Position numbers and translations under genes: made by a program. A stretch of 64,000 nt of DNA, from assembly GCA_019671135.1 (NCBI GenBank), contig JAHRHY010000019.1:992001-1056000 (forward strand). The letters are read 5' to 3'. Below are positions 19,852 through 26,339 of this stretch, in pieces (the stretch's first letter is position 1; each line of letters opens with the position of its first letter). The stretch comes from Linnemannia hyalina. Lineage: Eukaryota; Mortierellomycota; Mortierellomycetes; Mortierellales; Mortierellaceae. The notes beneath the pieces are model-generated. The model searched no databases. It had not been told where the DNA came from and worked only from the letters and a program-made list of their open reading frames with translations.

Positions 19852-21499
19852 TTGTCGAGTAACTTTTTTTTTTCTGAATCCTTCCATTTTTTCTTTTGCC
19901 ATTGCAATTCTTTTACTGCTCATAAAACAAATAGTAAAAAAAAACTAAGTGAAACTGTGTTTTCTAATGTGTATCTGATTTGGGCAAGATGTAGGGTCAA
20001 GGAAGCTGCTGTGCTCAACAAAATTGTCGATTCTACTATCCAGTCTTCGAACAAGAAGGCCTAATGGTATGCTGGTTCGTTCCTATGCCGTTCATTTCTT
20101 CAGCAGATGCCCAGGGGTTTTCCCTATTTCATGGAGTCATTTCCAGGATTATGAAATAGTCGATTGGATGGGGGCTATGGCGCTTTGTAGGCATTGGATC
20201 CTTGGGCGCTTGTCTCGGGAGGAGGGAGGAGTTCTCCACCAACCTCCGAGTTTTTTTTTTGATGCAGCAGCGCCTGCAGGATCAGACGGCGCGAGGCGGT
20301 TTATCCTCCTTTCGCGTCGCGCCTTTGGAAATGTCTGGTAGCGTAGCCTATTTTGGCTGCCTCCAAGGTAAGGCCGCTGGTATACTCATGTCGTTTCATT
20401 GGTTACAAAAGCTCTGCGAAGGGGATCTCGAAGGCTCGAGATCGCCTCGCCGTTTTCTGTGTTTTAGAACGCGACATTTGACCGGTTCGTTAGGAAACGT
20501 TTTTTTTTTTTTGTTTCTGCGTGGTATCGAACAAATCAAGGGGCTTTCGAATATTTGTGCGTTGTAAAAGATCAATGAACTTGATAGCCCGACTCTGATG
20601 ATTACCAGAGGGAGGAAAGGCTTTTGGTGGAGCTTTAACATGGCCTTGGATAGCTCGATTGGAGAGACTCGTGGATAGAGCACGTTGGGACAATTCTTGG
20701 TATTAGCGAGTCGTATTCCTGCTTATGAGGGTTTGTTGAGGGTGTGTCGTGGTTGACTCGAATTCGTCTCCCGCCACGCGTATAGCCTTTTTCTTCTAGA
20801 GCTGATATTAGAGACAAAATATGAGTTCTTGTGAGCGGCCTTGACTGGTAGGCTAATTGAGTTGATGACGATTTCATGGACTTGAGCGCCTTCGTTTTGT
20901 GATGACAGACATCTTCGCGGAGGATATGCGCAGTGAGAGCAAGACGGATATATTTGGATGTGAGGATTGTATGGATGGCAAGGCCTGTCAGCGAAGACGA
21001 CATCATTTTTTTTTGCTGCACTTCGAGATGTCGCCGATACAGTGCCCAAGTTTGTCCTGTGGATCCATGATTTTTTTTAGACGTGGCTGAGAGGGATCCT
21101 AACCTGCTCTATCTGTCTTTGCGAGTACCTTGATCAACACCTCTCCTCCACAGTCCCCATCTACAAAAACCCTACTTACAGAAGGATGAAGACCCTGCGT
21201 GAGACACGTTTGGTCAACTCCATGCGGGCTTTGTTAATGCTGAAGCAGGGCGCGGATAAAGCTAAGCTCCTTCGAGGAGACTCAAGTTTTTTAGTTGGCT
21301 AAGGGTGGGGACGTTGCGTCTTCAGGACTGTGTCGAAGTTGTGGGCGATGGAAGCCAACCATTGCTAATTTGTCTCTCGTTGTTGCGGAGCGATATCATC
21401 ATGGCTGTGTCTCGCGGGCTTCACAGGAGCTAGGAAAGGGCATGCAAAAAATGCTAGGTCTTCCTTCTTAATCATTTTCTTGACTTATTTCACGCGCAA
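19852..21499. other. intergenic, no gene seen
   Basis: About 1.6 kb downstream of the Gln-rich gene. Short open frames exist on both strands but none looks coding. It lies on the downstream side of a decayed 5S gene and may be decayed ribosomal spacer, which I cannot show. Confidence 0.4.
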
Positions 21500-21615
21500 C
21501 TCTCATATCTATTATTCCCATGTGATCCTCCACCGTAGCACTGACTACGCCATCAACTGTTTAACTGCACAGATCGAACGGGATGCGGTGGGTTTAGTTG
21601 TGTATGGCCGTAGCT
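21500..21615 (-). pseudogene. decayed 5S rRNA gene
   Basis: Read on the minus strand, the segment follows fungal 5S rRNA from its 5' end (ACGGCCATAC) through the CACCGCATCCCGTTCGATCT block, the box A region (AGTTAAACAG) and the box C region (GTGCTACGGTGGAGGATC) to GGGAATA. It then departs from the expected 3' stem. Several normally fixed bases are changed, so I call it a non-functional remnant. It has the same orientation as the 28S remnant about 570 nt upstream of it on that strand, the order seen in fungi that keep 5S in the ribosomal spacer. Confidence 0.75.
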
Positions 21616-22184
21616 TAAAAGTAAGGGATTGTCGCCTCACTACATATCAGATATGACGCACTGAAGTGCCAAGTTTTGGCCATTGTGCAAGTCGGGCAGT
21701 TTTTAGTCCGTCGGCCATCAAATACGTGCCCTTGGGCGCCCTTTAGATGGTGTCCCTTTAGATGGTGTTCACGGTGCTATAGAGCAGACACGGCGGCGAG
21801 ATCATGGGAGCAGATGGTGGCCAAACGAACATTTGTTTTGACCATTACTCCGTGAATATGCCTCCCGATCTGCGTTTGCACCTAATTTTCAAGCTCTCCA
21901 GGCACGATTATCTTATTGTAGCCACTTGCCGCATCGATAATAGTTGGTAAAAGGCTGCCATTTTTTTCTTCCTTTCTTCAGGCTGGAGGAGGGGTATCGC
22001 CGTAAGCAGCCCATTTGACACAAGTACGCGCACAGAGGTTTCAACTGACCAGAAAGCAATCCGGCCATCCGCCAACCCGACAGCCGGAGCATATGCTGAA
22101 CTGCTCTTAACCCAAGCGCCTGAAAGGGAAAGAAAAAGAAAAAAGAGAGAGAGAGAGAGAGACGTTGTTCTTTCGAACAAATCT
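21616..22184 (-). other. probable decayed ribosomal spacer between 28S and 5S remnants
   Basis: About 570 nt lie between the end of the left 28S remnant and the 5S remnant on the minus strand. Next to the 28S end there is a T/CT-rich stretch on that strand (about 22115–22165), as expected of a Pol I terminator region, and an equivalent tract follows the right-hand 28S copy. The rest shows no features. Confidence 0.5.
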
Positions 22185-22720
22185 AAAGAGCAATGAGGTT
22201 TTCCCCACCATATCGTAGCAAAACAAGGCTACTCTACTGCTTACAGCACCCCGTCCAATTAAAGTCGCCCGCAATGGATTTATCTCTTTCGATATTTCAA
22301 ATTAGCATTACCAGGAACCTTACAAAGCCTTTCCGCTTTGCAAGATAATCCCACGTAGTATGATCTTGGACCCCAGAGTTTGTTCATATTCAACTAGATA
22401 TCGGAAAAAGGCGGTAATCGTCGCGTTCTAACGCGGGTTCTGACTTAAAGACATTCAGCCATAACCTAACGGACGATAGGTTCGGGATATTGCCTGCTCA
22501 GGCACGCTCAAATACCAATTATCCGAATGAACGGTTCCTCTAGCACTAAGTTCAATTACTATTGCAACAACATTTCATCAGTAAGGTAAAACTAACCTTT
22601 CTCATGACAGTCTAAACACCAACGCTTACTGAATTCTGCTTCAGTATGATAAGAAGAGACGACATCGAAGGATCAAAAAAGCAACGTCGCTATGAACGCT
22701 TGGTTGCCACAAGCCATTAT
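22185..22720 (-). pseudogene. decayed 28S rRNA 3' end, left copy
   Basis: Minus-strand sequence tracks the last ~540 nt of fungal 28S rRNA. It starts in the GGCTTGTGGCAACCAAGCGTT block and runs through the TTAGTTTTACCTTACTGATG block, the sarcin–ricin loop region and GAACGCGACGATTACCGCC to CAGTAGAGTAGCC near the 3' terminus. The sarcin–ricin loop reads AGTGCTAGAGG instead of the invariant AGTACGAGAGG, and a stretch before the TTAGTTTTACC block has shrunk, so it cannot encode a working ribosome. It is truncated at its 5' side near 22720. Confidence 0.9.
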
Positions 22721-23364
22721 TAGCGGAGATTTTGATTACGTGTTGCGGTACGGGATTTTTTTCAATGAGAAAGCTCACCCCCGCCCCTCACCCTGTCTCC
22801 ACCTGAGTACATTAGATATATTATCCCCTCCATGGTGCGAAATAAAAGATCCCTCTCTTTCGTCCCTTTGACCACTCGAACATACACATACCCTTGACTT
22901 TTCATAGGTAGGTCAACAAGTCAGCTACCTCACGCTTCGTCTTTCATGCTAAATGCAAAGCACTGACCGCTTGGTTTATCAGGCTACAAGCATATGCAAT
23001 GAGGCACGCGCTGACGCCCTTCGTGTAATTTGCTGATGTTGAAACCCTCCCTCGACTCATGCAAAAATTCTTGGTATGACGTTACAGTAACGCCTTCCGT
23101 TTCATGAGTTGAATCTTTGCACTTTTTACAACTTACTTCCTTCCGCCTCACCTTTTGACCTTTACCCTTTCTGTCTTCTCTTGTACAATAATCAGCATTC
23201 GTTTTTTGCGTTTTCCCCAATCCCCGCAGTGCTTCTCCTGCCTCTCCCTGCGATCAACACGTCGTTTGTCCTCAATCTTTAACTCATAAATCTGCCCTTT
23301 GCTGTCGCACCTTCATATCCACCATTTTCTGAGTCCAATTGACCCAAACTCTGAGCGGGGAACC
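22721..23364. other. upstream region of the SpoIIIAA-like gene
   Basis: 644 nt between the truncated edge of the left 28S remnant and the start codon at 23365. No 28S similarity continues here. The last 200 nt become T/C-rich like other leaders in the window, which suggests a fungal promoter drives the gene. I see no integrase site, inverted repeat or obvious target duplication. Confidence 0.45.
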
Positions 23365-24915
23365 ATGGCCAAATCAAAAACAAAGAAAGCCGCAGCTGCC
23401 AAAGCCGCAGCCATCAAAGCCGCCGAAGCCGCAGCCATCGAAGCCGCCGAAGCCGCAGCCATCGAAGCCGCAACCAAAGGATGTTTTGTGGATGGGAACA
23501 AAGTTAGCGTGCCTCTATTCACCACAGCGCTCCAGAAACAAAATATCGTCACTCGCCACAAGCTGAAGCGGATAATTGAGACCACAGACTATCTTTCACT
23601 GGAGAACGGCAACGCGGTGGTACTCTCAAGGAGCATATTCACAGCAAAGGCGATGCACCTGCCACGGCCTCCTCTTCAAAACATGGCTACAGAGCCTTCC
23701 CAAAATACAGCAGCTCCTCCTCCGGCCGTCAACCCTGTTCAAGTCACAAACGCCACAAAACCAGTTCCGCCCCCCCAAAATACAGCAGCTCCTCCTCCGG
23801 CCGTCAACCCTGTTCAGGTCACAAACGCCACAAAGCCAGCTCCGCCCCCCATCGTATACCTCGCGGCTCGCAAGATTAAAAACACCACAACACCAGTTCC
23901 TTCTCTGTCGGTCGACTGCGACACGATGGCGATTATGGATGTTCTCGGTGATATTGCAACCAGGCATCTCGACTTGGAAGAAATCGCATTGACGGATATT
24001 TTTCTCGATGTGGGATCCAAGATGTCCGTCAAGATCAATGGAGTGTGCGTTCAGTTCGACTACGTAATCGCGCATTCCGACATATCTACGATATTGGAAC
24101 AACTGCCAGGAGGTGGACCCGATTTTAAACATAGCAACCGTGTGATCTTCGGGAGGACTCTTCATCGTTTAGCGGCAGTGACATATGACGGGTCCATCGC
24201 GGGCATCACCATCAGAGTCGGTCGGAGTGTGTCAGGACTCCTGCCCGTGTTCGAGGGACTCGTCGAACAGAAGAACGTGCTTCTGTGTGGTTCCCCTAAC
24301 GTTGGGAAAACGACGACTCTTCGCGAGATATGCAAGTACCTCTCCCGCGGCAAGTGTCTGTGCTTGATCGACACGTCCGGCGAGGTGTGCGGAGAAACAG
24401 GAACAGGAGACAGGGGCCACATTGTGGGCACCTCACGAGTCTTCCGGCCAGTAGATCCCGCCAAACAGTATACGACTCTGCTCGACTGTGTAAGGAACCA
24501 TTCGCTTGACGTCATTGCAATCGATGAGCTGAACACAAAGGAAGAGGTGGAAGTATGTCAGACTATCGCACTGAGGTCCATTCAGATGGTTGCCTCTGTC
24601 CACGGAAACATCCAGGACCTCGTGTTCAACTCAATGCTGAACAAGGCGCTCGGAGGGTCGACAAATGCTCTCGTTTCGGATCGGGTAGCGATTGACGGAA
24701 GAAAGGTTGTCATGCAGCGTACTACACGTCCAATTTTCGACGTAGTGATTGATACCACGAGGACTTCACACGGGTTCGAGTATTCATTTATCGAAGACGT
24801 CGCCAACAATGTCAGCCGCATCATGCAGGGGAAACCGATCCATATCCGCAGAAGAAGAATGGTCGGCAAGGAATTGTTAGAGTCTAAGGAGGAGGTCTTG
24901 TATCCTTGTGAGTGA
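23365..24915 (+). CDS. SpoIIIAA/Ycf45-type P-loop ATPase
   Basis: An intronless gene for 516 aa. The start at 23365 sits in a strong ACCATGG context. Residues ~9–36 are an Ala/Lys/Glu helix built from AAEAAAIE-like units, and residues 113–162 are two copies of a 25-aa Pro-rich repeat. The C-terminal ~330 aa match the RecA-like ATPase of SpoIIIAA (bacterial sporulation) and Ycf45/R3H-AAA proteins (cyanobacteria, plastids). Supporting motifs are GITIRVGR (280–287), Walker A GSPNVGKTT (309–317), the CLIDTSGEV block, Walker B IAIDEL (384–389), and a SVHGN block with H413. The catalytic motifs look intact, so ATP hydrolysis is likely; the substrate is unknown. I see neither a plastid-style R3H domain nor a signal peptide. 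It sits between two decayed 28S ends, an odd place for a single-copy gene, and acquisition from bacteria is plausible but unproven. Confidence 0.85.
   Translation: MAKSKTKKAAAAKAAAIKAAEAAAIEAAEAAAIEAATKGCFVDGNKVSVPLFTTALQKQNIVTRHKLKRIIETTDYLSLENGNAVVLSRSIFTAKAMHLPRPPLQNMATEPSQNTAAPPPAVNPVQVTNATKPVPPPQNTAAPPPAVNPVQVTNATKPAPPPIVYLAARKIKNTTTPVPSLSVDCDTMAIMDVLGDIATRHLDLEEIALTDIFLDVGSKMSVKINGVCVQFDYVIAHSDISTILEQLPGGGPDFKHSNRVIFGRTLHRLAAVTYDGSIAGITIRVGRSVSGLLPVFEGLVEQKNVLLCGSPNVGKTTTLREICKYLSRGKCLCLIDTSGEVCGETGTGDRGHIVGTSRVFRPVDPAKQYTTLLDCVRNHSLDVIAIDELNTKEEVEVCQTIALRSIQMVASVHGNIQDLVFNSMLNKALGGSTNALVSDRVAIDGRKVVMQRTTRPIFDVVIDTTRTSHGFEYSFIEDVANNVSRIMQGKPIHIRRRRMVGKELLESKEEVLYPCE
23701..23850 (+). 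repeat. 75-bp tandem duplication inside the ATPase gene
   Basis: Two nearly identical 75-bp units, the second starting at 23776, add a second copy of a 25-residue Pro/Ala-rich linker. The few differences are mostly single bases, which suggests a recent duplication compared with the decay of the flanking rDNA. Confidence 0.9.
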
Positions 24916-25294
24916 TAGATAGAAGTGCGTTTTATTCTTTTAACTGCGCGATAAACCTCATAGCAACATCCATTTTTCATGCTATGATATTTGTGGACCA
25001 TTAACTGAGTTGGCCTTAAATTAGATCGACATTCACGTCAGAGTCTAGGAGCTGAGGTGTGATGGTAGAGAGAAGGACAGTAGGATTGTAGGAAAGGAGA
25101 GAGAGTGTTACGTGAGAAATAACGTTCGGAGCACTTACATATCGTTAAACACATTCAGTCCCATGTTCAACACATAGAGGCTCAACGGGCCAGCCGCACA
25201 ACCCATCCTCCAAGGGATAGGCTGAGCGACCCTTAACTCACGAGCTTGAAAGAAAAAAGGAAAAAAAAGAGAGGGAGAAGTTGTTCTTTCAAGC
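24916..25294. other. spacer between ATPase gene and right 28S remnant
   Basis: About 380 nt. Its last 70 nt (from about 25225) match the sequence flanking the 3' side of the left 28S remnant, including the CT-rich tract on the minus strand and a CTTAA-containing block. The rest shows nothing I can name. Confidence 0.5.
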
Positions 25295-25841
25295 AAAGAA
25301 CAATGGGTTTAATCTCAGCTGATCGTAGCAACAAAGCTACTCTACTGCTTTCAATACCCTGTTCAATAAAGTTGTCTGCAATGGATTTATCTCGTGCTAT
25401 ATTTGAAATTAACATTAGCAGGAACCTCACGAAGCCTTTCCGCTCTGCAAGATAATCCCATGTTTGTTTGTAAGATTCAGGACCGTAGGTCTATTCATAT
25501 TCAACTAAAAGCGGTACAAGGCGGTAATCGTTGCGTTCTAGCACAGGTTCCGACTTAGAGGCGTTCAGCCATAACGCAACGAATGATAGCTTCGGGCCAT
25601 TGCCTATTCAGGCACGCTCAAATGCCAAGTATCCGAATGAACGGTTTCTGTAGTGCTAAGTTCAATTACCATTGCAACAACATTTCATCAGTAGGGTAAA
25701 ACTAACCTGTCACGACGGTTACCTCAGGTCTTGTTCCCTATTTGTGGGCGAACAATTCAATGCTTACTGAATTCTGCTTCAGTATGATAGGAAGAGCCGA
25801 CTTCGAAGGAGCAAAAAGAAATTTCGCTATGAACGCTTGGT
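25295..25841 (-). pseudogene. decayed 28S rRNA 3' end, right copy
   Basis: Minus-strand sequence again follows the 28S 3' end, from CCAAGCGTTCATAGCG through GGCTCTTCCTATCATACTG, GTTAGTTTTACCCTACTGATG and GAACGCAACGATTACCGCC to GAGATTAAACCC at the 3' terminus. The sarcin–ricin loop is mutated (AGCACTACAGA). The 5' edge near 25841 falls within about a dozen bases of the left copy's edge in 28S coordinates. It is a direct repeat of the 22.2–22.7 kb remnant, and the two flank the ATPase gene. Confidence 0.9.
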
Positions 25842-26339
25842 AACTGTCGCGTACGAGGTTATTCCTAGCAAATTTGTAAGATCGCGTGATGACAGGCATT
25901 GTCCTTATTATCCACTTAATGTTATCTCTTTATCTTGTCCTTATTATCCCCTTGATGTTATCCCTTGATATTGTCGCTTGGCATTATCCATTGGAGTTGT
26001 CACTTGCTACTGTCCAAGTGGTGCTGCCCTTTGATCTTCTAGTCCTTTGACATTTTTTTTGCCACTTGGTTGCTTTTCAGACACTCATCCTTTTCAAGCA
26101 TCCCTTGATCTCTTCGCAGCATCTCTCGATCTTTTCGCAGCATCTCTTGATATTTTGGCGTTCCTCCTTTATCTTTTTCTCTGCATTATTTTCTTTCTTT
26201 TTCCACCATGCTATATTGATCTCCAACTCCGTCATACTATTAAAAGTACAGGCTTCCCTCCATTCCTACCTCTCAGCCTACTTTTACCTTTCAATCCATC
26301 CCTTTACATCCACCCTACTCACCCCATTCAAAAAAAGCT
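25842..26339. other. minisatellite-like spacer and C/T-rich leader
   Basis: About 25900–26000 contains degenerate repeats of a TTATCC…TTGATNTTGTC-like unit. At 26097–26159 a 21-bp unit (CATCTCTCGATCTTTTCGCAG-like) occurs three times. From 26160 the strand is C/T-rich like a gene leader and runs into the broken small gene at 26340. Confidence 0.6.

Follow-up and report, generated by a model that had tools for sequence, protein, structure and literature searches.

The 64,000-nucleotide window analysed here, the whole stretch C11:992001-1056000 of the Linnemannia hyalina assembly (51.5 Mb, 50 contigs), carries an intact ATPase gene between two direct, degenerate 28S rRNA 3' ends that lie on the opposite strand. 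L. hyalina belongs to the family Mortierellaceae. In our judgement the locus very probably holds two separate things side by side: a vertically inherited Mortierellaceae ATPase, and dispersed 28S copies that resemble short interspersed nuclear elements (SINEs). The gene is most likely not trapped within ribosomal DNA (rDNA).

The ATPase gene and its protein

The open reading frame (ORF) spans 23299-24915 and encodes, from its ATG, an uninterrupted protein of 516 amino acids; the longest stop-free run in 500 base shuffles of the same segment was 220 codons. The translation keeps GSPNVGKTT, VIAIDE and SVHG, which we take to be the Walker A, Walker B and SVHG motifs. A first-pass annotation had described an intact and intronless gene with these motifs preserved, lodged between two direct copies of a degenerate 28S 3' end. 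All of this holds, with every match to the Rfam eukaryotic large-subunit (LSU) rRNA model on the minus strand (Table 1).

The N-terminus (residues ~1-95) consists of an Ala-rich helix and a part that may be a winged helix. It is joined by a low-confidence linker with an internal duplication to a PilT/VirB11-like ATPase at residues ~180-516. The fold of the PilT/VirB11 secretion superfamily (an N-domain plus a RecA-like domain) is matched by the window protein, although the matches to PilT, VirB11 and GspE ATPases are only ~12-17% identical. The fold is of the PilT/VirB11 type, and a bacterial secretion system is not expected in a fungus. Judged from the fold, the protein probably works as a hexameric motor powered by ATP, and nucleic acid may be what it acts on.

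The gene had initially been labelled SpoIIIAA/Ycf45-type, and this label fits in part. The window protein barely passes the gathering cut-off of the Spore_III_AA family PF19568 (27.3 bits against 27), as do four of five other fungal members tested, with P0067 falling short at 26.1. However, it lies far below the curated cut-off of the SpoIIIAA equivalog TIGR02858 (42.2 bits against 281.3), and it is not SpoIIIAA proper. The ATPase core is held in common with SpoIIIAA and with R3H-bearing bacterial relatives, which are presumably of the Ycf45 type, whereas the extra N-terminus sets the fungal protein apart. The C-terminal R3H domain, present in the bacterial relative P0075 (Anaerolineaceae), was detected neither in the window protein (E up to 0.001) nor in five other fungal proteins (E up to 0.01).

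An ATPase family in Mortierellaceae

Searching the genome with the ATPase protein identified three places: the window, contig C33 and C11:88550. The C33 copy is also intact, with 469 amino acids, and its letters match KI688_009105; like the window copy it is a single uninterrupted ORF. The piece at C11:88550 has decayed, matching 59 residues near the C-terminus with two stops. Near this piece we observed a 596-amino-acid ORF (L028 107-1897, minus strand) that, by eye, looks like a piggyBac-type transposase.

Between the two intact copies the ratio of nonsynonymous to synonymous substitution rates (dN/dS), estimated with our own Nei-Gojobori script as a pairwise average over both copies, is 0.38 overall (dS 0.35); it is 0.24 within the ATPase part (residues 180-516) and reaches 0.73 in residues 1-179. 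These values support constraint on the ATPase part, averaged across the pair. Homology between the two loci is limited to approximately -325 to +95 around the gene; beyond this the alignments do not rise above shuffles, and BLAST over longer stretches of both loci linked none of the outer flanks. A joint duplication of the ATPase loci together with their flanks was rejected on these grounds.

Two protein searches, one with the sequence and one with a profile, each scored the 7,998 candidates that shared most words with the query. The first returned 75 matches: the window protein, 56 proteins from named Mortierellaceae, one labelled Apophysomyces ossiformis, 14 nameless and three with the R3H architecture of bacteria, one of these named Anaerolineaceae. 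The profile search, with 76 matches at E 1e-10, left this picture unchanged. Apart from the Apophysomyces label, no plant and no member of another fungal phylum appeared among the matches that either search drew from its 7,998 candidates.

In a tree of 87 rows, 67 fungal-side rows separate from 20 bacterial rows with support of 100/100. The window protein groups with P0005 of M. hygrophila and with Mortierella sp. GBA39 (100/98), and the C33 copy groups with P0014, also of M. hygrophila (100/100). Each copy thus pairs with a different M. hygrophila protein, so the two parted before the split between L. hyalina and M. hygrophila. The tree omits the fragments P0048, P0062, P0063, P0071 and P0072 as well as the profile-search matches P0076-P0078, and its bacterial loci are 18 that were hand-picked among 80 listed, of which L057 was dropped after its frame was lost. 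P0010, the protein labelled Apophysomyces ossiformis (Mucorales), falls among Linnemannia and Mortierella proteins; its genome may be mislabelled or contaminated, or the gene may have passed recently from one fungal order to another.

The surroundings of the gene in the window hold ordinary fungal genes, e.g. PEX1 at ~29-33 kb. For P0005, the M. hygrophila orthologue, the longest contig is given as 310,633 bp, and the same figure is given for the PEX1 of that species; from these equal sizes we read the two as probably lying on one contig. The E. parvispora homologue and PEX1 are listed on contigs of differing size, so this linkage is not general. Taken together, the protein sequences indicate a family that is old and widespread in Mortierellaceae.

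Bacterial relatives were sought with two degenerate patterns, by which a relative could be missed. The best 80 of 509 confirmed stretches are 30-37% identical to the window protein, mostly over residues ~180-516, and by title are largely from Chloroflexota, while Cyanobacteria, Armatimonadota and further groups also occur. Such low identities would make any transfer ancient, and a close bacterial donor was rejected among these best 80. Viral carriers were likewise rejected, as none of 53 pattern matches in IMG/VR encodes a relative. The proposal that a bacterial-type ATPase sits at a nuclear fungal locus is supported. Mortierellaceae often host bacterial endosymbionts. The ATPase was probably gained from bacteria before the Mortierellaceae radiated, and would then have been inherited vertically within the family, with the winged-helix-like N-terminal domain and without the R3H tail.

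A dispersed family of 28S-derived elements

Compared with a fresh reference copy from an array on contig C13, the two 28S pieces of the window are 88.8% and 89.8% identical over aligned columns, with 6 and 9 indels respectively, and they are 84.8% identical to each other. Set beside the dN/dS of the ATPase part, this agrees with the suggestion of the first-pass annotation that the gene was kept by selection while the adjoining 28S sequence decayed. The freshest dispersed copies are ~99% identical to the same reference.

The family is abundant. Searching the genome's DNA with the upstream window copy produced 49 matches when 40 of the 209 candidates were scored. Pattern counts across the genome found 123 occurrences of a 24-nt head (up to 2 mismatches), 181 of a 23-nt head motif and 57 of a 32-nt 3'-end motif (up to 3 mismatches each), with 0 for every reversed-pattern control. 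Outside the window, 17 of 22 distinct non-tandem places of the long family begin within reference positions 76-82, which is LSU model position ~2825. Of the remaining five, three have their start at 92-107, an insert breaks up another, and the last starts far inside; two pairs among the places have common flanks and are duplicates. The long copies extend to the 28S 3' end and continue into a pyrimidine-rich tail. A TTAAGGG-like motif, whose background frequency is 3% per 130 nt, follows the 28S end in 12 of 18 long copies; these 18 are drawn from 24 (the 22 plus the window's two), six near-identical or similar copies being omitted.

A second, short family of ~121 bp has the same first 75 nt and then differs; the search for it gave matches in all 40 scored candidates, of 186. 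With sizes of ~121 and ~660 bp the elements have no room for a reverse transcriptase ORF, which sets them apart from R2-kind retrotransposons. As dispersed non-coding copies with the head of an RNA gene and a fixed 5' end, they fit the description of a SINE in these respects. Some long copies are tandem at the end of C13 (L024-L026, C13:904001-930000), with one element per unit of ~3.69 kb. Among the ORFs of at least 100 amino acids in one such unit the largest has 205 and is of low complexity. By eye, a 102-amino-acid ORF in the unit has a zinc-finger-like start.

Since the family has a fixed 5' boundary and its copies are dispersed, the 28S pieces do not look like the leftovers of an rDNA unit at this site. 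This bears directly on the idea of a gene that entered an rDNA array from a bacterium or endosymbiont, the array decaying around it afterwards. In favour of that scenario, the 28S sequences flanking the gene share one orientation, and the closest non-fungal relatives found are bacterial. Nevertheless we consider it very improbable: the boundary is fixed and family copies occur on many other contigs, the gene family is older than the species and widespread, the identities to the best 80 of the 509 bacterial stretches are low, and the contig apparently shared with PEX1 in M. hygrophila points the same way. Furthermore, the window contains no small-subunit (SSU) or 5.8S rRNA match at the Rfam gathering score, in a search that covered the rRNA genes. 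The related idea that rDNA served as a landing site for a mobile unit is not supported either, as the 28S pieces belong to a repeat scattered over well above 100 further places.

It is extremely unlikely that misassembly placed rDNA fragments at the locus. In its favour, when a 300-bp internal 28S piece served as a DNA query, nothing but the piece itself was returned; the assembly may therefore lack the true rDNA array. Yet the copies are spread over many contigs and differ in divergence and in flanks, and those of the window are 10-11% diverged, with indels. The internal piece used as query is a decayed one on C1 (L044, C1:2528501-2531800), corresponding to model positions 1120-1449.

Flanks that resemble the 28S source

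The sequences that precede the elements are biased. We analysed 41 distinct 5' flanks (54 before similar ones were removed), 12 of which end in GGA, compared with a mean of 0.7 and a highest count of 5 in 2000 shuffles. Eight of the 41 end in GGGA (shuffled mean 0.2, highest 2). The 28S itself ends in GGA/GGGA just before the ~2825 boundary. A looser match further upstream, to what we take as the pre-boundary 28S sequence, is found in 11 of the 41 flanks (shuffled mean 2.8, highest 9 in 200). The bases just before an element therefore tend to agree with those that precede it in the 28S from which it derives. We read this bias, from the flanking bases, as a possible trace of retroposition with microhomology or of a site preference. 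At some loci (for example L142, L132 and L130) an intact 28S head is preceded by decayed pre-boundary 28S sequence, as if such copies sat in or beside older 28S copies.

A plausible course of events is that RNA of the 28S-headed, non-coding family, starting from ~2825, was copied into sites resembling its own 28S junction. The two copies in the window look like old, separate insertions on either side of the gene.

Are the gene and the elements connected?

The question of whether further ATPase copies are also flanked by 28S sequence has a divided answer. The C33 gene is: a 28S 3'-end piece lies ~660-690 bp before its start (motif at C33:630190), a short-family copy ~120 bp past its stop (C33:627857), and a further 28S copy within the same 10 kb. 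Around the decayed piece at C11:88550, the 9 kb that were examined contain no member of the family. A fungal ATPase clade at loci free of rDNA, which would speak for an ordinary gene, is found as far as the clade goes; as for the loci, examined in this genome, C33 has elements and the third piece has none.

Several observations weigh against the explanation preferred here. Both intact ATPase copies have 28S elements on each side within 0.7 kb, and this is unexplained. If elements were placed uniformly, the expectation would be 0.0015 for a 3' end lying within 700 bp of a gene and 0.005 for a head; these are upper limits, each taken alone, and must not be multiplied because the elements cluster. 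The window was chosen for its flanks, so that C33, a single locus, is the only test of the association. In addition, the TTAAGGG-like tail motif is absent from 6 of the 18 long copies, and inspection of the element flanks by eye made no target-site duplication evident. On the side of the protein, no bacterial donor was identified among the best 80 of the 509 stretches, and the tree software gave a long-branch warning for the point at which bacterial row L066 joins the fungal rows, so that the place of the fungal clade among bacteria is tentative.

One explanation is that the retroposition machinery behind the 28S elements also moved the ATPase, as cargo or as a retrogene product, so that its copies landed in the same kinds of site and came to be flanked by the elements. 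The close elements on both sides, all four antisense to their gene, would follow, as would homology confined to the span expected of a copied transcription unit, and uninterrupted ORFs in both intact copies beside a short 3' piece with stops in the third place. We find this unlikely. The flanks differ, being long/long in the window and a long-family 3' piece plus a short-family copy at C33, and no common element termini frame the two copies. The third piece stands without a family member, and the contig apparently shared with PEX1 in M. hygrophila favours a stable place. The flanks of the window and C33 loci are not homologous, so the elements look like separate insertions. A common ancestral upstream element (649 bp from the ATG in the window, ~659 bp at C33) was rejected, since the intervening sequence could not be aligned above shuffles beyond about -325. 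A broader and similarly doubtful form of this explanation is that a Mortierellaceae retroposition system targets the 28S junction AGGGA/TAACTGG and its lookalikes, makes SINEs of two sizes, and has also moved mRNAs, including that of the acquired PilT/VirB11-like ATPase, whose N-terminus would bind DNA or RNA. Both intact copies would then lie between antisense 28S elements because the ATPase mRNA was moved by 28S-directed retroposition. We continue to prefer an inherited gene with independently inserted elements nearby.

Layout of the locus

The elements of the window lie ~650 bp (649) before the ATG of the ATPase gene and ~380 bp past its stop (Table 1). The remainder of the 64 kb holds no other member of the 28S family (E 1e-4). 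A 5S rRNA-like match (21497-21615, minus strand, 52.8 bits), ~560 bp from the upstream element, is possibly a 5S pseudogene or a diverged gene.

Table 1. Coordinates of the ATPase gene and the neighbouring 28S-derived elements in the window.
Feature	Position	Strand	Evidence or remark
Intact ATPase ORF, 516 aa	23365..24915	+	ATG at 23365
Stretch homologous to the paralogous C33 locus (approximate)	23040..25010	+	Gene plus ~325 bp before and ~95 bp after it
Upstream element of long family A (degenerate 28S 3' end), antisense to the ATPase gene	22179..22771	-	LSU match 22179-22771, 271.9 bits
Downstream element of long family A (degenerate 28S 3' end), antisense to the ATPase gene	25290..25853	-	LSU matches 25290-25684, 195.1 bits, and 25704-25853, 104.2 bits
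Pyrimidine-rich tail of the upstream element (ends approximate)	22095..22178	-	TTAAGGG-like motif 68 nt past the 28S end
Pyrimidine-rich tail of the downstream element (ends approximate)	25200..25289	-	TTAAGGG-like motif ~60 nt past the 28S end

Significance and relation to known systems

The explanation we favour is mostly ordinary. Both families, that of the repeats and that of the fungal ATPases, merit description. Neither a fungal ATPase family of this kind nor a fungal 28S-derived SINE is described in the titles and abstract openings covered by our literature search. The ATPase suggests that a bacterial type of motor has been kept across a fungal family without a known job there. The repeats illustrate how 28S rRNA can give rise to a SINE-like family that is abundant in a fungal genome, starts at a fixed point and prefers flanks that mimic its source, and this combination makes a targeting mechanism testable. 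For annotators, 28S matches in such genomes are no evidence of an rDNA locus.

Two known kinds of repeat are the closest comparisons. Mammals have SINEs derived from 28S rRNA, according to the part of PMC13174262 that cites Longo et al. 2015, and the term 'SINE28' occurs in PMC3576234 on the tammar wallaby. The mammalian elements are likewise reported to be dispersed repeats with a 28S rRNA source, whereas the L. hyalina family has a fungal host, a long form made of the 28S 3' end plus a pyrimidine tail, and a short form in which ~75 nt of 28S are joined to another body. The 5S rRNA-related SINEs of Aspergillus fumigatus, as described in PMC5063351, are also rRNA-derived SINE-like repeats in a fungus; there the source is 5S rather than 28S, and five copies are given in contrast to the 181 heads found here.
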